Shown here: positions 20,950 through 35,339 of the stretch, piece by piece
Position numbering within the stretch: position 1 is the stretch's first letter
Layout: each line of letters begins with the position of its first letter
DNA from: Brochothrix thermosphacta DSM 20171 = FSL F6-1036
Lineage (GTDB): Bacteria; Bacillota; Bacilli; Lactobacillales; Listeriaceae
Assembly (NCBI RefSeq): GCF_036884295.1
Contig: NZ_CP145608.1
Coordinates: forward strand, 806,001-870,000
Length of the DNA: 64,000 nucleotides
Direction of reading: 5' to 3'
Translations under genes and position numbers: made by a program
Notes under the pieces: model-generated
Told to the model about the DNA's origin: nothing
Databases searched by the model: none
Seen by the model: only the letters and a program-made list of their open reading frames with translations

Positions 20950-22227
20950 ATGAAAACAGTTAATGCAATTAAACAACTTAACGGGACCATTGAGGTACCC
21001 GGTGATAAATCAATTTCGCATCGCGCAATTATGTTTGGTGCTTTAGCAAATGGACAAACGACCATCGAACATTTTTTACATGGTGAAGATTGCCTCAGCA
21101 CAATTGCTGTATTTCGTCAGCTAGGTGTTGCTATCGATGTTTCATCTGATAAAATCACAGTGCACGGGACTGGCATTGAGTCGCTTAAACAACCTTCAAC
21201 TATTTTAGATGTGGGTAATTCAGGCACGACCATTCGTTTAATGATGGGAATTTTAGCAGGACGACCCTTTGTAAGCCAATTGACAGGTGACGCCTCTATT
21301 CAAAAACGACCAATGAATCGTGTCATCACACCATTAAAAACAATGAGTGCAGCAATCAGTGCTCAAGAAGGTGGCTTGGCACCAGTGACAGTTTCAGCTG
21401 TTGAGGCTATTACGGGCATTAATTATGATATGCCAGTTGCAAGTGCACAAGTCAAAAGCGCCTTGTTATTTGCAGGTATGCAAAGTGATGATGTCACAAT
21501 TATTAATGAAAAAGAAAAATCTCGTGATCATACAGAGCGTATGCTGCAACAATTTGGTGGTGAAATTACCATCAATGGTTTAAGCATCAGTATTACAAAA
21601 CAACCACCGTTACAAGGGCAAAACATCTACGTGCCAGGTGATATTTCCTCAGCAGCATTTTTCCTTGTTGCAGCAAGTTTATTAGCCGGTTCAAAGGTGA
21701 CGCTTAAAAATGTGGGGATGAACCCAACGCGAACAGGTATCATTGATGTATTGCGTGATATGGGTGCCGCTATTGCTGAAACAAGTCAACCGACAACGGG
21801 TGAACCATTATCTGATTTGACTGTAAGCGCAGCGCCATTGAAAGCTACTGAAATTGGTGGCAGTCTTATCCCTCGTCTCATTGATGAGCTGCCGATTATT
21901 TCCTTGCTGGCCACTCAGGCAGAAGGAACAACAGTGATTAAAGATGCAGAAGAATTAAAAGTTAAAGAAACCAATCGAATTGATACGGTGGCAGAAGAAT
22001 TAACTAAAATGGGTGCCGATATTACAGCGACACCAGACGGCTTAATTATTAAGGGGCCAACAGCGTTGCATGGTGCCACAGTTTCTTCACATGGTGATCA
22101 TCGTATCGGTATGATGTTAGCAGTCGCAGGATGTATTGCGTCGTCACCAGTAGAATTAGAAGATGCAGAAGCCATTGCCGTTTCTTATCCCAACTTCTTT
22201 GAACACGTTGAACAATTAAGTAAATAA
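20950..22227 (+). CDS. aroA: 5-enolpyruvylshikimate-3-phosphate synthase
   Basis: 425 residues. PGDKSISHRAIM, GNSGTTIRLMMG, KRPMNRVITPL, EKEKSRDHTERML, GDISSAAFFLVAA and the final DHRIGMMLAVAG are EPSP synthase motifs. The RPMNR motif resembles the class II enzymes of Gram-positive bacteria (inference from memory). It joins shikimate 3-phosphate and PEP. AGGAGC precedes ATG20950. Last gene of the operon; a terminator follows about 85 bases downstream. Called aroE in Bacillus. Confidence 0.96.
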   Translation: MKTVNAIKQLNGTIEVPGDKSISHRAIMFGALANGQTTIEHFLHGEDCLSTIAVFRQLGVAIDVSSDKITVHGTGIESLKQPSTILDVGNSGTTIRLMMGILAGRPFVSQLTGDASIQKRPMNRVITPLKTMSAAISAQEGGLAPVTVSAVEAITGINYDMPVASAQVKSALLFAGMQSDDVTIINEKEKSRDHTERMLQQFGGEITINGLSISITKQPPLQGQNIYVPGDISSAAFFLVAASLLAGSKVTLKNVGMNPTRTGIIDVLRDMGAAIAETSQPTTGEPLSDLTVSAAPLKATEIGGSLIPRLIDELPIISLLATQAEGTTVIKDAEELKVKETNRIDTVAEELTKMGADITATPDGLIIKGPTALHGATVSSHGDHRIGMMLAVAGCIASSPVELEDAEAIAVSYPNFFEHVEQLSK

Positions 22228-22312
22228 TAATAAAAACGAATTCAACCAAGTTAAAAAAATCGTAAAGCTTCATATATTCTCAAAACGTTCATATTTTTTA
22301 TATCAACGTTTT

Positions 22313-22350
22313 CAGGCGTTTCACAATTCACTTTGCGAAGCGTCTTTTTT
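22313..22350 (+). terminator. Terminator of the aro operon
   Basis: AGGCGTTTC / GAAGCGTCT stem (two wobble pairs) with a T6 tail. A weaker AAAACGTT...AACGTTTT pair lies just upstream at 22281-22313. Confidence 0.75.
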
Positions 22351-22720
22351 ATTATGCAATATATCAAATAAGTCGTTATTAATTCAGCTGCACTTTTGTT
22401 GCTTATATTGTTGCGAAAGTATGAGCTTACAAAGACAGCATGAGTGCTAATATGGGGCGGAGGTTTCCCAAGAAAATCAGTACCAGTCCATCAATTGAGT
22501 ACCATTCCAAGTCATTCCTCATGTGAGGGAAGCTTTCTGCGTGTGACTCCTTATCCTCCTCGCTCCGCTGTGGGGTATTCGGACGCCACTTTTCCCGCTA
22601 GAGTCCCCCTCACAACCGTCATGACTGTACATGTTTATGATTAAAGCTAAGTAGAATTCGATTGCAGAAATTTTTTTGATAATTTTAATTTTGTTGTTGC
22701 TGACATCGTTGCTTATTTAT
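22351..22720. other. Gene-free stretch of decayed repeats at the island's left edge
   Basis: No coding region can be supported here. 22390-22460 is a badly decayed reverse copy of family 1 (TGCTTATATTGTTGCG ... GCTAATATGGGGCGGAGG). 22480-22515 is a fragment of the unit repeated at 22721 and 28184 (TCAATTGAGTACCATT). 22617-22660 (TCATGACTGTACATGTTTAT...AAGTAGAATTC) matches 31599-31641 at about 36 of 43 positions. The Bacillales-like REP element at 22521-22614 lies in the middle. Confidence 0.7.
22521..22614. repeat. GC-rich REP-like element
   Basis: A compact element much richer in G+C than its surroundings, bounded by a perfect 8-bp inverted repeat TGTGAGGG (22523-22530) / CCCTCACA (22607-22614), with a nested GACTC (22545) / GAGTC (22601) and the internal CTCCTCGCTCCGCTG and GGACGCCACTTTTCCCGC. 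From memory it resembles a repeat scattered through many Bacillaceae genomes (GACTCC ... TTTCCCGC-(x)-GGAGTC). Only one copy is in this window. Confidence 0.6.
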
Positions 22721-22808
22721 TCGCTTACGAAGACAGTATGGGACGGAGATTTCAGGAGAAATTGAGTACTATGCAATCAATCGTTTCAAGACATTTTCCA
22801 TTTATTTG
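22721..22808 (+). repeat. Left copy of an 88-bp direct repeat flanking the hsd island
   Basis: Aligns without gaps to 28184-28271, 78 of 88 positions identical by hand count. Its first half is a reverse family-1 end (ACAGTATGGGACGGAG); the second half is ATTGAGTAC...AATCAATCGTTTCAAGA-(x)-ATTTTCCATTTATTTG. The two copies bracket truncated hsdM, hsdS, hsdR and the rpsI fragment. Confidence 0.85.
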
Positions 22809-22823
22809 AAAGATGTCTTTTTT
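22789..22823 (+). terminator. Hairpin with T tail at the left repeat
   Basis: AGACAT (22789-22794) pairs with ATGTCT, followed by seven Ts; the loop is long (about 18 nt), so strength is uncertain. It would block read-through into the hsdM remnant. Confidence 0.45.
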
Positions 22824-22887
22824 TGTTGAAAAAAATAGTCTATTTTGAGTTGGAAATAAGAATTTGTTTCTTGCCAACATTGATTGA

Positions 22888-23565
22888 GGACAAGAAAAGT
22901 TAGTCGAAGATTCTCGATGGAAATACGGAACGCCACCTAAAAATAATGCCAACTATGCTTGGATACAACACATGGCATCAAAATTAGCACCAGAAGGTAC
23001 AGCAGGCTTTGTTTTAGCAAATGGTAGTATGTCTACATCAACGAGTGGCGAATTTGAGATACGTAAAAACCTTATAGACAATGACATGGTGGAATGTATT
23101 GTAACGCTACCTAGTCAAATGTTCTATTCAACACAAATTCCAGTTTGCTTATGGTTTATTACGAAATCTAAGACTAAGAAAAAAGAACGTAATCATCCAG
23201 GTGAAATATTGTTTATTGATGCCAGAAATGAAGGGTTCATGGCAGATAGAACGACTAAAGAGTTTAGCAAAGAAGATATTAATAAAGTAGCAGATGTTTA
23301 TCATGCATGGAAAGGTACTTCTGAAACAGACTATCAAGATATAGCAGGATTCTGTATGTCTGCTTTATTAGAAAAAGTTCAAGAACATGATTATATATTA
23401 ACGCCTGGTCGTTATGTCGGATTAGAAGATGAAATCGAAGATTCAGAACCATTTGAAGAAAAGATGGAACGCTTAACAACGACTTTGTCGGAACAATTTA
23501 TTAAGTCCCATAAATTAGAGGAAGATATAAGAAAAGCTCTAGGGGGAATTGGATATGAAATATAA
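22888..23565 (+). pseudogene. hsdM: Type I restriction-modification methylase HsdM, 5'-truncated
   Basis: The frame can be read from 22888 (GQEKLVEDSRWKYGTPPKNN...YAWIQHM) through to 23565, giving about 225 residues that match the C-terminal 40 percent of HsdM (GTAGFVLANGSMS, EGEIRK-like GEFEIRKNLI, LPSQMFYSTQIPVCLWF). Typical HsdM is about 500 aa. The SAM-binding half and the NPPF catalytic motif are missing. Just upstream, in frame, FLANID-stop-GQEKL suggests a LANPPFN...WGQEKL region that has lost its NPPF and turned Trp into TGA. The first ATG left is 22972. No promoter or ribosome-binding site supports translation, and without the catalytic half no methylation is expected. Confidence 0.85.
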
Positions 23566-24802
23566 GATTAAGGATGTAGTTAATTTAAATCATAGTTCAA
23601 TAAAGAAAGATGAACTGACTAATATTTTATATTTGGACACCGCTAATCTAAACCAGAATACAATAAATGAATTAACAGAATATAATTTTGTTATAGATAA
23701 AGTCCCGAGTAGAGCAAGGAGAAAAGTTAATAATAATGATATTTTATTGTCAACAGTGAGACCTAATCAAGAACATTATGGTATTTTAGATAATCCTCCG
23801 ACTAATTTAATAGTATCGACAGGCTTTGCAGTATTATCACCAAAAAAAGATATAGTAAATCCTAATTATTTATATGCTTACTTAACTCAAAGAAGAATAA
23901 CGGATTATTTGCAAATAATTGCAGAAAATAGTACGTCAGCTTATCCTTCTATAAAGCCTTCTGTTATTGCAAATTTGGATATAGAATTACCCAGTATGGA
24001 AAAACAAAATTCTATTGGGGAATTTTCAAAAAGTTTGGAAAATAAAATTAAATTGAACAACCAAATCATATCCACCCTAGAAGAACTAGCCTCAACCCTA
24101 TTCAAAAGATGGTTTGTAGATTATGAATTCCCAGATGAAAATGGTAATCCATATAAATCAAGTGGTGGGAAGATGATAGAGAGTGAGTTAGGTGACATAC
24201 CAGAGGTATGGGAAGTATTAAATTTAGCTGATGTATCGGAAGACATAATTACAGGAAAGACCCCTAGTACCAAAGAAAAAGAAAACTACGGTGATGAGAT
24301 ACCTTTCATAAAAATTCCTGATATGCATAATAATACTTATGTTGTTAATACAGAAAGTTCTCTTTCTTCTCTCGGAAGTAGTCTGCACCCTAAAAAACTA
24401 TTACCTAAAAATACTATTTGCGTTAGTTGTATTGCAACGCCTGGGCTTGTATCCATTACATCAGAAGAAAGTCATACCAATCAACAAATAAATGCAATAT
24501 TACCAAAAAAAAATGATTTATATTTTCTATACTTGAATATGAAGTCAAAAAGTAATTTAATTAAGGAGCTAGGGAGTGGGGGCAGCACTACTTTAAATTT
24601 AAACAAAACCCAATTTGGAAAGATTAAATTAGTATACCCGCCAGAAATCATTAAAGAGACTTTTAATGATTTCTGTTCTCCACTATTTTTAAAAATTTTA
24701 TTACTTAAGAGGAGTAATAATCAGTTAGTAAACCTGAGAGATTCTTTATTGCCTAAGTTGTTATCAGGTGAAATAGAAATACCACAAGGTGAGGATGTGT
24801 AA
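23555..24802 (+). CDS. hsdS: Type I restriction-modification specificity subunit HsdS
   Basis: 415 residues with two target-recognition domains (about 1-150 and 215-385), each followed by a helical conserved region; the central one (about 165-205) reads LEELASTLFKRWFVDYEFP and the C-terminal one LRDSLLPKLLSGEIEIP. HsdS gives the complex its DNA recognition sequence. It overlaps the hsdM end by 11 bases, with AGGGGG before ATG23555. The first domain is very A+T rich compared with the core genes, as usual for exchangeable hsdS. Intact in sequence, but its methylase partner is broken here. Confidence 0.92.
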   Translation: MKYKIKDVVNLNHSSIKKDELTNILYLDTANLNQNTINELTEYNFVIDKVPSRARRKVNNNDILLSTVRPNQEHYGILDNPPTNLIVSTGFAVLSPKKDIVNPNYLYAYLTQRRITDYLQIIAENSTSAYPSIKPSVIANLDIELPSMEKQNSIGEFSKSLENKIKLNNQIISTLEELASTLFKRWFVDYEFPDENGNPYKSSGGKMIESELGDIPEVWEVLNLADVSEDIITGKTPSTKEKENYGDEIPFIKIPDMHNNTYVVNTESSLSSLGSSLHPKKLLPKNTICVSCIATPGLVSITSEESHTNQQINAILPKKNDLYFLYLNMKSKSNLIKELGSGGSTTLNLNKTQFGKIKLVYPPEIIKETFNDFCSPLFLKILLLKRSNNQLVNLRDSLLPKLLSGEIEIPQGEDV

Positions 24803-24805
24803 TTT

Positions 24806-27800
24806 TTGGCAGAAGAGTATGTATTTAATGAAAATGAGTTAGAACTTGTTGCATTACGTTGGTTAGAAGAAGTAGGCTATACTTCTGTATCTGCAAAAGA
24901 ACTAGAAGATAGTGGGATGTCTAAACGCAACGATTATAAAGAAGTCGTGTTGAAAGACCGTTTACAAGAAGCATTAATTACAATCAATCCCAACATTTCA
25001 ATAGAAGTAATCGATGAAGCTCTTAAAAAGATAACAGTTCCAGAGCACCCAAACATGGAAGTAAACAATCAGACTTTCCATAAATATATTACAGATGGCA
25101 TAGAGATTCAAACTAGAGAAAATAATACGAACGTTACTAAACGAATCCTATTATTTGATTTTAATGAACCAAGGAATAATGATTTTTTAGCAGTCAATCA
25201 ATTTATAGTGGAAGAAAACAATCAACGTAAACGGACAGATATTATTTTATTTATTAATGGATTACCACTTGTTCTATTTGAATTGAAAAACGCCACTGAT
25301 GAAGCAGTTGGCACTTCTGATGCCTACAATCAACTACAAACTTATAAACAAGAAATACCATCTTTATTAACCTTTAATGAGTTCATGGTCGCAAGTGATG
25401 GTGTTCATGCTAAAGTGGGCACATTGTCAAGTAATGAAGAACGCTTCATGGTATGGAGGACAATTGATGGTCAAATTGAGTATGGAACAGCCAGTAGTCA
25501 ATTAGAAGTTTTAATTAAGGGGATGTGTAATCCAGAAGTATTATTGGACTTAATTCATCATTTTATTTTGTTTAAAACAGATGGTGATAAAACAATTAAG
25601 ATTCTTGCTGCTTATCATCAATATCATGCTGTCAATAGTGCTGTTGAAGAAGCCAAAAGAGCTGTTAGTTCAGAAGGTGATAACAAGATAGGTGTTATTT
25701 GGCACACACAAGGCTCAGGTAAAAGTTTATCTATGGTGTTTTACACAGGAAAATTGGTTCAAGAGCTTAATAACCCAACCATTGTCGTTTTGACAGATAG
25801 AAATGACTTAGATGACCAGCTGTTCTTAACTTTTAGTCAATCTAGTGATTTACTAAGGCAAACGCCTAAACAAGCCAACAATAGAAACGATTTAAGAGAG
25901 TTATTATCCGTTAACGCAGGTGGGGTGATTTTTAGTACCATGCAAAAGTTCTCCCCAGAATCTGGCAATCAAATGGATGTTTTAACTGATAGACGGAATG
26001 TAATTGTGATGGCAGATGAAGATCATCGTTCACAGTACGGTTTTAGTGCCGATATTAAAGAATCAGACGGAACTATCAAATATGGTTATGCCAAATATCT
26101 TAGAGATGCCTTACCTAATGCTTCTTACATAGGATTTACAGGTACGCCAATATCTAGTACCGATAAGTCAACTAAGGCTGTTTTTGGTGATTATATTGAT
26201 GTGTATGACATGACCCAATCTGTGGAAGACGGAGCAACGGTTAAAATTTATTATGAGAGCCGTATTATTCCAGTATCATTACCAGAAGACTTAGAAATAG
26301 ATGATTTAGTAGAGGAAATCGTAGAAGGACAAGAAGATACCATTGCCTCTAAATCTAAAGTAAAATGGAGTCGAGTCGAGGCCATTACAGGTGCACAACC
26401 ACGATTAGAACAATTGGCAAAAGACTTTGTGACACACTTTGAAACAAGACAAGAAGCTTCCTTTGGTAAGTCGATGATTGTGGCAATGTCTAGACGGATT
26501 GCGATTGATTTGTATCAAGAAATAATTAAGTTACGTCCCAAATGGCACTCAGATGATGATGACAAAGGCAAGATTAAAATTGTAATGACAGGTTCGAGCA
26601 GTGACCCTGATTACTGGCAACCATTTATTGGCAATAAGTCAAGACGTGATAAATTGGCTACACGTATGAAAGATGATTCTGATGAACTACAAATTGTTAT
26701 TGTACGGGATATGTGGTTAACAGGCTTTGATGTGCCTTCAATGAACACGATGTACATTGATAAGCCAATGCAAGGACACAATCTCATGCAAGCAATAGCA
26801 CGTGTAAATAGAGTATTTAAAGATAAAACAGGTGGCTTAGTGGTCGATTATATAGGAATAGCACCTAAACTTAAATCAGCCTTACAAGAATATACACCAA
26901 GCGACCAAGCACAAGCGGGGATAGACACTAAAATTGCGGTTAATCTAGTCAAAGAAAAATATGACCTAATTACCAATACAATCATAGATAAATTTGATTA
27001 TTTAGAGTTTAACTCATCAGACCATGTTAAAAAGTTAACAGTAATTACCAATGCAGCTAACTATATATTAGGGTTAGATGATAAAGAAGAAGTCAAACGA
27101 TTCAAAGACCTAGTAACTGAAATTACAAGAGCCTATGCGTTATGTGTAACCGAGGAAGAGGTTCAACAGTATAATGCTGAAATAGCCTTCTTTAAAGCGG
27201 TTAAAGTTTACCTAATAAAATTGAATTTTGTAGATGGAGTAAAATCACCACAGCAGATTGATGAAGAACTTAAACAGTTAATTTCTAAATCTGTTGTGAC
27301 AGAAGATATTGTGGATATATACGAATCATTAGGACTAGAAAAAGCTGAGCTATCAATTTTATCTGATAAGTTCCTAGAAGAAATCAAGGAAATGCCACAA
27401 AAAAATCTAGCACTACAGCTATTAGAAAACTTATTAGCAGGCAAAGTAAAGTCAATTCAACGCACCAATATTGTGCAAGCTAAAAAGTATTCAGACCTAC
27501 TTCAACAATCGATTGATAAGTACAATTTAAGAGGAATTGATTCAGAAATTGCTATTCGAGAATTGATTGAGTTAGCAAAAGAAATGAAGAATATGAAAGA
27601 AGAAGGCGAAGAATTAGGCTTAACGGTAGAAGAAAAAGCCTTTTACGATATCATATCTAAAGATTCCGAAGTAGATAAACAAGTACTTAAAGATATTTCA
27701 GTGGATATTGCTAAAACAGTCAATGACAATATGACGTTGGATTGGACAAAACGTGCTTCTGAAAAAGCTGGAATGAGAGTAGAAGTAAAAAGGCTACTAA

Positions 27801-27886
27801 GAAAACACCAATTCAAAGCTAGTCCTGAAACAATTCAATTAGTAATTGAACAAGCGGAATCAATGGCAGGTAATTTAACAGAATAA
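24806..27886 (+). CDS. hsdR: Type I restriction enzyme translocase/nuclease subunit HsdR
   Basis: 1026 residues, full length. The nuclease domain shows RTDIILFINGLPLVLFELK with E159-x-K161; the SF2 motor shows Walker A GSGKS (303-307), motif II DEDH (404-407; usually DEAH), and FTGTP. The C-terminal helical part binds the MTase. It would translocate DNA and cut at a distance from unmethylated HsdS sites. TTG24806 is the start, with AGGTGAGG upstream. No in-frame damage is visible, yet hsdM is truncated; HsdR needs HsdM and HsdS to act, so it is probably silent unless an intact hsdM exists elsewhere. Confidence 0.94.
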   Translation: MAEEYVFNENELELVALRWLEEVGYTSVSAKELEDSGMSKRNDYKEVVLKDRLQEALITINPNISIEVIDEALKKITVPEHPNMEVNNQTFHKYITDGIEIQTRENNTNVTKRILLFDFNEPRNNDFLAVNQFIVEENNQRKRTDIILFINGLPLVLFELKNATDEAVGTSDAYNQLQTYKQEIPSLLTFNEFMVASDGVHAKVGTLSSNEERFMVWRTIDGQIEYGTASSQLEVLIKGMCNPEVLLDLIHHFILFKTDGDKTIKILAAYHQYHAVNSAVEEAKRAVSSEGDNKIGVIWHTQGSGKSLSMVFYTGKLVQELNNPTIVVLTDRNDLDDQLFLTFSQSSDLLRQTPKQANNRNDLRELLSVNAGGVIFSTMQKFSPESGNQMDVLTDRRNVIVMADEDHRSQYGFSADIKESDGTIKYGYAKYLRDALPNASYIGFTGTPISSTDKSTKAVFGDYIDVYDMTQSVEDGATVKIYYESRIIPVSLPEDLEIDDLVEEIVEGQEDTIASKSKVKWSRVEAITGAQPRLEQLAKDFVTHFETRQEASFGKSMIVAMSRRIAIDLYQEIIKLRPKWHSDDDDKGKIKIVMTGSSSDPDYWQPFIGNKSRRDKLATRMKDDSDELQIVIVRDMWLTGFDVPSMNTMYIDKPMQGHNLMQAIARVNRVFKDKTGGLVVDYIGIAPKLKSALQEYTPSDQAQAGIDTKIAVNLVKEKYDLITNTIIDKFDYLEFNSSDHVKKLTVITNAANYILGLDDKEEVKRFKDLVTEITRAYALCVTEEEVQQYNAEIAFFKAVKVYLIKLNFVDGVKSPQQIDEELKQLISKSVVTEDIVDIYESLGLEKAELSILSDKFLEEIKEMPQKNLALQLLENLLAGKVKSIQRTNIVQAKKYSDLLQQSIDKYNLRGIDSEIAIRELIELAKEMKNMKEEGEELGLTVEEKAFYDIISKDSEVDKQVLKDISVDIAKTVNDNMTLDWTKRASEKAGMRVEVKRLLRKHQFKASPETIQLVIEQAESMAGNLTE

Positions 27887-28045
27887 ACTAGTCTATAGGC
27901 TATATAAAATGTTATTTAAAAGCTATTGTGACGGTTGAAATTGGGTCTTTAAAAACAGTCTATAACTGTTAAAAATGTCATTTAATAAGAAATCGTGAGA
28001 AGTTCAAACAAGTATTTGAAATCAGAAAAAGCCTATTAAATAAGC
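27887..28045. other. Gap between hsdR and the rpsI fragment
   Basis: No gene. It holds an inverted repeat AACAGT-CTATA-ACTGTT (27953-27969) and TTCAAA-CAAGTA-TTTGAA (28004-28021), the latter about 25 bases before the rpsI homology begins. The second palindrome is a possible recombinase arm or core site, but no integrase gene is present. Confidence 0.5.
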
Positions 28046-28159
28046 TTCCGTTCAGCACTTAAATCTAAAGGTTTACTTACTCGTGACTCACGTATGGTTG
28101 AGCGTAAAAAACCAGGTCTTAAAAAAGCCCTTAAAGCAAGTCAATTCTCTAGGCGTTAA
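28046..28159 (+). pseudogene. rpsI: Orphan 3' end of the ribosomal protein S9 gene
   Basis: In frame from 28046 the DNA reads [17 protein letters not shown], then [20 protein letters not shown] and a TAA stop: 37 residues matching the C-terminus of ribosomal protein S9, ending in the near-invariant QFSxR. There is a stop just upstream (28037) and no start or rest of the gene. From memory, Listeria S9 ends ARRAPQFSKR while streptococci and enterococci end ARKASQFSKR with [12 protein letters not shown]; this fragment looks more like the latter. The 3' end of rpsI is a known integration site for some integrative elements in Firmicutes, so this may be an attachment-site scar carried in with the hsd island. 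Confidence 0.85.
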
Positions 28160-28183
28160 TTGCTGGATCCGTGGTGAATTCAT

Positions 28184-28271
28184 TCGTTTACGATTACAGT
28201 ATAGGACGGAGATTTTAGGAGGAATTGAGTACCATTAAATCAATCGTTTCAAGATATTTTCCATTTATTTG
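28184..28271 (+). repeat. Right copy of the 88-bp direct repeat flanking the hsd island
   Basis: Pairs with 22721-22808 (78 of 88 identical, no gaps). It starts 25 bases after the rpsI fragment's stop codon. Confidence 0.85.
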
Positions 28272-28304
28272 GACTCTGTGTCAAATAGTGTTGGTGAGAA
28301 AAAT

Positions 28305-28565
28305 TGCTAATATCGTAGCGAAGTCATGAGCGTACGAGAGTAGTATGGGACAGAGCGAAAGCGCCAATCCATTCTATTAAGTTAAGAAGCTTTTTGGATT
28401 GTAGATTAAGTTCTACAATCCTTTTTTATATGATTAATTAGTGAAACAGAGAAGAATGATACTTTCGGAAATTAGTGCAATTCTTGCAACCAAAACTAAC
28501 ATGTTTGATAAGCTTAATCTTGTTGTTGCTACTATCATAGAGAAGTTAGTAGTATGGGACGGAAG
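28305..28565 (-). repeat. Two reverse-oriented family-1 copies before ypiA
   Basis: 28305-28356 reads TGCTAATATCGTAGCG ... TACGAGAGTAGTATGGGAC, the reverse complement of the family-1 hairpin and linker; its loop differs (GAAGTCATGA). 28521-28565 reads TTGCTACTATCATAGAGAAGTTAGTAGTATGGGACGGA, with TACTAT/... still able to pair with AGTAGTA. No gene can be supported between 28160 and 28848 apart from the terminator at 28392. Confidence 0.7.
28392..28427 (+). terminator. Terminator with a twin at 56839
   Basis: GGATTGTAGA / TCTACAATCC with loop TTAAGT and a T6 tail. The same stem with loop TTAATT follows greA at 56839-56870. No intact gene precedes it here, so it may have been copied. Confidence 0.85.
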
Positions 28566-28848
28566 TTTCGCCAGAAATTGAGAGCCATTCATTCTATCTA
28601 TCTCGGTTGAATAATAATAGACGAAACTCGTGTGAATATTTGTGTAAGTGATATAGGCTCTTTTTCAAATAGCGAGCAGCACAGTTATATTTCTATTTTT
28701 TTTGCTTAAAAATAGTGTTAGTGACTTATTCCGTCATGAATACATAATTTATAAAGTTTTTTTATTTGTCCACAAGCAATCACCAGTCATTTATTATGTA
28801 TATATGGTACAATTAATAACCATGAGTAAGAGAAAGGATTTGAAAACA

Positions 28849-35204: not shown

Positions 35205-35339
35205 AGGGATGGTACATGGAATGGTACTCGGACTTGAAGGAATGGTACTCTTAAGACATTAACATAATGATTGGTACTCGCTGTCGCTGCGTCCCATACT
35301 ACTCTCGTAAAGCGGATAAATCCGCTACGATATTAGCAG
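35205..35339 (+). repeat. Family-1 copy with several GGAATGGTACTC boxes
   Basis: Boxes GGATGGTAC, GGAATGGTACTC, GGAATGGTACTC and ATTGGTACTC occur at 35208-35272, with CTTAAGACATTAACATAA between, then CGCTGCGTCCC and the hairpin at 35295-35339 (CTCTCGTAAAGCGGAT-AA-ATCCGCTACGATATTAG). Same orientation and same modular order as the array at 1530-1906. Confidence 0.85.

Follow-up and report, generated by a model that had tools for sequence, protein, structure and literature searches.

The question raised by this locus of Brochothrix thermosphacta DSM 20171 is how the end of a ribosomal protein gene came to lie beside restriction genes and not at rpsI. The window, that is, the whole stretch of 64,000 nucleotides analyzed here, contains at 28046-28159 the 37 C-terminal codons and the stop codon of ribosomal protein S9 (rpsI) in a single reading frame. 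The answer proposed here, to which a probability of about 0.88 is assigned, is that this fragment is the end of a lactic acid bacterial rpsI, displaced by an element at the donor site and then imported.

The fragment matches the Pfam family Ribosomal_S9 (E=7e-11) at profile positions 86-121 and the frame on its upstream side is closed by stops, which confirms what the earlier note had read from the letters, namely 37 in-frame codons up to the stop and nothing of the remainder of the gene. A search of the whole genome with PF00380 yields two matches: (i) the intact rpsI (C1:132496-132858; E=6e-51); and (ii) the fragment (E=8e-10). Since the profile responds only twice, the similarity is far beyond chance. 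Compared with the native rpsI end, as that note had proposed, the fragment shows 73% nucleotide identity over 114 nt and, by a count made by eye on the alignment, 26 of 37 identical residues; hence, it is no copy of the native gene. In addition, it carries deviating residues (L instead of R, and R instead of K near the end) where most of the 25 compared S9 ends agree, a pattern to be expected of a pseudogene. In its present form, the fragment probably has no function.

The fragment lies to the right of a type I restriction cluster formed by an N-terminally truncated hsdM, hsdS and hsdR (Table 1). The whole island occupies the spacer that separates an aroA-like gene from a TPR gene, which we take to be aroA and ypiA. 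In the sister species, represented by G001, the single further genome of the genus (85% complete), both genes are about 0.3 kb apart, without the island, and homology to the window resumes at about 28784. In view of this empty spacer, in one sister genome, the fragment is not conserved vertically in all relatives; likewise, 18 other genomes of the family gave no second long match to it. As a separate observation, some ten Listeriaceae genomes have one weak 40-nt match (78-80%) to window 28149-28185, across the S9 stop and away from rpsI.

Table 1. Features of the island and its edges (positions in the window).
Feature	Position	Strand	Basis
Second S9 3' end, decayed (about 50 bp of the stop-proximal part, frame lost), with element-type terminator	22244..22350	+	Local alignment
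ISL3-type IS, 3' end remnant	22510..22673	-	88% over 164 bp to G000:C1:1904222-1904385
RNA element copy (R1), terminator-like sequence after it	22697..22776	+	R1 78.7 bits
Left arm of rpsI-type element	22843..22885	+	86% over 43 bp to G001:C15:887-929
hsdM without about 280 N-terminal residues, among them the DPCCGAGG and NPPF motifs	22882..23565	+	PF02384 positions 170-310; motif check
hsdS, specificity subunit	23549..24802	+	PF01420, two stretches; 30% to E. mundtii hsdS
hsdR, restriction subunit	24806..27886	+	Pfam HSDR_N, SWI2_SNF2, T1RH-like_C; 88% aa over 1024 residues to E. mundtii
Displaced S9 3' end, 37 codons and stop; putative right border (attR) with donor host sequence	28046..28159	+	Pfam, alignments, E. 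mundtii comparison
RNA element directly after S9 stop, donor-type	28160..28239	+	R1 69.4 bits; identity 0.787 vs 0.710
Weak further RNA element copy	28304..28371	+	R1 31.3 bits
Further RNA element copy, right of S9 end	28526..28592	+	R1 35.8 bits; 0.648 own vs 0.625 others

The nearest counterpart of this arrangement is found in Enterococcus mundtii Pe161. When genome contigs were scanned with hsdR and the best 80 of 384 related places were kept, E. mundtii Pe161 ranked first with 88% identity (the next, 59%) and, among those best 80, it was the only locus in which the fragment was matched at E<=1e-3. This genome carries a displaced 114-nt S9 end and its native intact rpsI on the same strand, about 18.4 kb apart. 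Between them lies a complete element, unannotated in the E. mundtii data, with the following order: a tyrosine integrase (PF00589) beside rpsI, a second short tyrosine recombinase, a resolvase, a gene with a PriCT primase domain, hsdM, hsdS, a PIN-domain gene, hsdR and, finally, the displaced S9 end. No relaxase was found among the seven proteins of the element that were scanned. At the 5' boundary, both S9 ends of E. mundtii share the same 29 nt, whereas downstream they show many differences, as expected for a crossover at a core that replaces the last 37 codons.

The window shares with E. mundtii the junction itself: in both, the end of an hsdM/S/R cluster abuts an S9 scrap with the same 5' start, next to homologous hsdR genes, and the S9 stop is followed by the same RNA element. 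Window 28046-28240 is homologous to the E. mundtii border without a break (195 bp, 84%), reaching 81 bp past the stop, and there is only weak similarity immediately to the left of the fragment. On the other hand, the E. mundtii element is complete, located at rpsI and equipped with integrase, second recombinase, resolvase and primase-like gene; its hsdM is full-length and a PIN-domain gene separates hsdS from hsdR. The window has the hsd end only, elsewhere in the chromosome. The search for S9-end borders next to hsd genes, recommended in the earlier note, led to E. mundtii, with an integrase at the other border. This comparison supports the view that the window holds the right border of an E. 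mundtii-type rpsI element together with donor host DNA.

Regarding the present condition of the island, the remaining part of hsdM is 83% identical at the amino acid level to residues 311-507 of its E. mundtii counterpart, with DNA homology beginning at 22882, and the motif check found neither catalytic motif I nor IV in it. Motif II of hsdR reads DEDH in the window vs DEAH in E. mundtii. Type I restriction requires HsdM and, since this hsdM is devoid of its catalytic part, the hsd system should not methylate by itself and hence should not restrict. The genome has another, full N6_Mtase gene (C1:2528540-2529466), 27.5% identical to the E. mundtii hsdM. A tblastn search with the E. mundtii integrase (E<=1) gave no integrase match in the window, where only the left arm is preserved, and the three island proteins contain no relaxase or conjugation genes, their Pfam matches being hsd only (the scan covered ORFs from 90 aa upwards). 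Around the own rpsI, which is intact, no integrase-like ORF was noted by eye among the ORFs listed there. Judged by its truncated hsdM and its missing integrase, the island is a relic. It may be mentioned that the N6_Mtase gene G000:C1:2528540-2529466 and a tyrosine integrase gene at 2542659-2543795 are about 13 kb apart, possibly another restriction island.

As for the donor, the nearest of the 25 compared S9 ends belong to two genomes (L194 and L195, family f8) of the order, presumably Lactobacillales, with 86% nucleotide identity and 35 of 37 residues; the E. mundtii end shows 84% and 31 residues, and in a genome of family f3 (G391, additional to those 25) 91 nt were matched at 90%. Since two genomes of the order share 35 of 37 residues with the fragment vs 26 in the own S9, the donor was probably a lactic acid bacterium of this order, outside this genus; between families f8 and f3 the matches do not decide. 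The impression, stated beforehand, that the fragment looks more like lactic acid bacteria is therefore supported by the sequence. Moreover, the RNA copy that follows the fragment has a mean identity of 0.787 to 20 copies of other genomes vs 0.710 to 12 dispersed copies of the own genome, 11 of these 12 being nearer to each other than to the copies of other genomes. Because 28160-28239 is nearer to the copies of other genomes, the fragment most likely arrived along with the DNA behind it. In consequence, the claim that the island is foreign stands for the S9 fragment, and has to be extended to the DNA after the stop.

A plasmid or a phage as the vehicle was considered and set aside. Searches of collections of mobile elements with the fragment plus 81 bp gave two plasmid records, both from Listeria, one of which is annotated as rpsI and the other chromosome-sized; in the phage collection, nine unannotated "phage" records matched, two of them, by their headers, unverified wastewater clones. 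These two clones (L273, L274), labelled Listeria phage, are 82% identical to the S9 fragment and perhaps represent host DNA.

With these elements at hand, the following route may be proposed. An element with a tyrosine integrase and a type I restriction cargo would have recombined within the donor rpsI, using a short core around codons 94-103. The element would supply its own copy of the last 37 codons, keeping rpsI whole, and the original last 37 codons of the host, along with RNA element and terminator, would be pushed to the far border beside hsdR. Then, donor DNA comprising the hsd end, the border and host DNA beyond it would have entered an ancestor of B. thermosphacta and ended between aroA and ypiA. 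Decay would have followed there, leaving the present state, in which the integrase and the catalytic part of hsdM are missing and an IS remnant and other fragments occupy the left edge. The arrangement is seen in E. mundtii and the same junction in the window; it is from both that we infer the recombination. Since donor DNA beyond the border came along, the insertion would not have been a clean integrase reaction, but most likely came about through recombination between RNA-element repeats or through a rearrangement linked to an IS. Homology for such recombination would be offered by the copies of the RNA element at 22697, 28160, 28304 and 28526. Consequently, the idea of an integration scar beside a restriction cluster holds in that the fragment appears to be the border of an element, as indicated by the E. 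mundtii junction, but the integration would have occurred in the donor rpsI and not here.

The left edge of the island is a mosaic. Its S9 end, aligned with the rpsI/integrase junction of G022, reaches a local score of 104 (the maximum of 1000 mononucleotide shuffles being 27) and, with that of G028, a score of 100; the terminator that follows is 95% identical over 37 bp to E. mundtii. This end resembles the left (attL) border of rpsI elements, and S9 ends are thus present at both edges of the island, the decayed left one resembling a repeat class other than the 114-nt one. Further to the right there are: (i) the IS remnant, whose counterpart G000:C1:1904222-1904385 overlaps the end of an ORF with DDE_Tnp_ISL3; (ii) an RNA-element copy, 83-84% identical to the copy after the S9 end and to E. 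mundtii; and (iii) the left arm, which is covered by only one of 14 matches to G001 and scores 56 (maximum of 1000 mononucleotide shuffles, 39), and whose counterpart in G001 lies between rpsI and a tyrosine integrase. The shuffles used for left border and left arm preserve base composition, not dinucleotides. Sequence similar to the ISL3-type remnant (window 22510-22673) also occurs near several contig ends of G001.

The presence of both S9 ends, in the same orientation and with an element-type terminator after the left one, would suit an alternative in which an integrase of the 50-56-bp class excised a composite circle from the donor rpsI and this circle then entered a secondary site in the aroA-ypiA spacer, the left S9 end being attL and the right one attR; besides, the 114-nt fragment includes the stop-proximal stretch used by that class. 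This route is rather improbable, as the DNA to the right of the core should then be the own aroA-ypiA spacer, whereas 28160-28239 is donor-type (0.787 vs 0.710), the homology to E. mundtii continues past the S9 stop, and inspection by eye showed no core-like site next to aroA in the sister species. In general, the case for a clean integrase insertion at aroA-ypiA is weakened by the donor-type sequence that follows the stop. Less probable still is the chance capture of lactic acid bacterial chromosomal DNA carrying hsd genes and an rpsI end, with no integrative element involved: the window gives no integrase match and the right breakpoint lies beyond the S9 end, but in E. mundtii an S9 scrap with the same 5' end adjoins a homologous hsdR and forms the border of an element, and the left arm and the second S9 end are found on the other side of the island. 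Finally, a local or segmental duplication of the own rpsI or a vertically inherited pseudogene, which an S9 fragment in a genome with intact rpsI might suggest, was rejected and is hardly credible in view of the 73% identity, the sister spacer of about 0.3 kb without such sequence, the family genomes lacking a second long match, and the lack of an RNA-element match (R1 model) near the own rpsI in L003.

The displacement at the donor rpsI proposed above has parallels among described elements. The 3' end of rpsI is the target of tyrosine integrases of three families in streptococcal IMEs and ICEs, in which tandem accretion and decayed elements are described (PMC5357655; for IMEs and ICEs in rpsI, also PMC4701971). 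In Enterococcus faecium, the esp pathogenicity island is located at rpsI, with an imperfect 54-bp repeat at the very end of the gene, and its transfer between strains has been shown (PMC2858755). The statement that this gene end is a known target in Firmicutes is accordingly borne out for streptococci and E. faecium (PMC5357655, PMC2858755). The window resembles the streptococcal elements in the rpsI 3' end as target and in the existence of decayed elements (PMC5357655), and the esp island in the rpsI 3' end as repeat and in that the nearly whole rpsI island of strain U0317 is found downstream of tuf instead of at rpsI; unlike the window, the esp island has its 54-bp repeat at the very end of the gene and another cargo (PMC2858755). 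IMESag-rpsI encodes a relaxase (PMC5090054), whereas no mobilization gene was found in the window island. In titles and abstract beginnings, the literature on rpsI elements covers streptococci and E. faecium, with no hsd element at the E. mundtii rpsI; at the same level, the literature searched contains no treatment of the window island or the RNA element.

Displaced S9 ends were surveyed in 22 stretches from 19 genomes, picked for earlier extra S9 ends or RNA-element copies (L163, L165 and L169 were left out). Besides the intact native gene (outside the stretch in L268-L270), 14 of the 22 stretches contain extra S9 ends, 20 altogether: 16 of 50-56 nt, three of 17 nt and one of 114 nt. The latter, in E. 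mundtii, is the single intact example of its class. Fifteen of the 20 have the RNA element behind them, in full or in part; it is missing after the second end of L164, after each of the three ends in L166 and after the 52-nt end of L260. Since 15 of 20 extra ends show it, in these selected stretches, the combination of S9 end and RNA element can be taken as the mark of a displaced end. Three stretches of the 22 have genes similar to the hsdM or hsdR query, namely that of E. mundtii itself and, at 24-29% identity, L266 and L268. In G150 (L257 and L258), a region of about 35 kb that takes in rpsI and the sequence downstream of it has seven RNA-element copies, some of them with S9 ends, an array suggestive of a long tandem accretion of rpsI elements.

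Beside the rpsI of the sister species lies a partial integrase, 67% identical to the E. mundtii integrase over the C-terminal half; across the nine genomes searched, the relatives ranking next stand at 40%, and the own genome has one of them (C1:2542659). Because of this partial integrase and the arm beside that rpsI, the genus has met rpsI-type elements at rpsI too. By eye, the partial rpsI-type tyrosine integrase of G001 (L062) is apparently cut by an IS3-like sequence near a contig end.

A displaced rpsI end can be seen as a "passport stamp": it persists after the integrase is lost, even at a distance from rpsI, with a sequence indicative of the donor group. In combination, S9 end and RNA element would mark the far border of rpsI islands. 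The RNA element is, in turn, a candidate new structured RNA, whose spread and role are testable.

This element comprises some 75-80 nt directly after the S9 stop which fold into two hairpins. Its R1 copies in the window lie at 1552-1624, 1714-1786, 1833-1904, 22697-22776, 28160-28239, 28304-28371, 28526-28592 and 35267-35339. Rfam 15 gave no match at E<=1 in window 22227-28830 and, in L172, L173 and L177, only L13_leader below the gathering score, at positions other than the element. When 395 genomes of the order were searched with 28046-28275, matches were obtained in 101 (E<=1e-22). The 29 best loci besides the window comprise 26 with intact rpsI and three with an S9 end only (L171, i.e. E. 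mundtii, L197 and L199); by a count made by eye, the ca. 80 nt after the stop are present in 24 of them, partial in two (L193, L196) and absent in three (L194, L195, L198), figures that are no measure of frequency, as the loci are ranked by likeness to a query containing the element. In L193:1615-1704, after the rpsI of G289, the first hairpin is kept and the second replaced by a different sequence.

In an alignment of 21 sequences (20 from other genomes and one own copy), seven of 25 pairs show changes on both sides; compared with 500 shuffles, the observed value was reached by none in four of five measures and by seven in the fifth, the two-hairpin structure having been derived from the same alignment of related sequences. 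For 49 distinct rows of the own genome, in an alignment fitted to the model, two-sided changes affect 19 of 25 pairs, a value reached by 0 of 500 shuffles.

A deeper search of 14 genomes (150 candidates scored in each; E<=0.001) gave 78 matches in the own genome, some partial or overlapping, seven in G150, four in G305, two in G041 and one each in G024, G070, G272 and G282, and found no element in G001, G003, G004, G015, G020 and G021. A shallower one, in which 11 candidates were scored in each genome, detected it in 61 of the 395 genomes, and in none of the 20 other genomes of the window's family listed there. One may tentatively regard the element as an undescribed portable 3'-UTR RNA, at home mainly right after rpsI of lactic acid bacteria and multiplied to about 78 copies here, some of them immediately following the stops of unrelated genes. 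Under the same reading, doubtful as it is, rpsI islands would leave the element behind displaced S9 ends, it would have arrived perhaps with the island, and its fold would be kept by compensatory changes. Among 28 own copies examined (from 59 matches), the ORF of at least 80 aa that precedes the element lies on the same strand in 20 cases and on the opposite strand in eight, and five of the 28 begin at, or a few nt from, the stop of that ORF.
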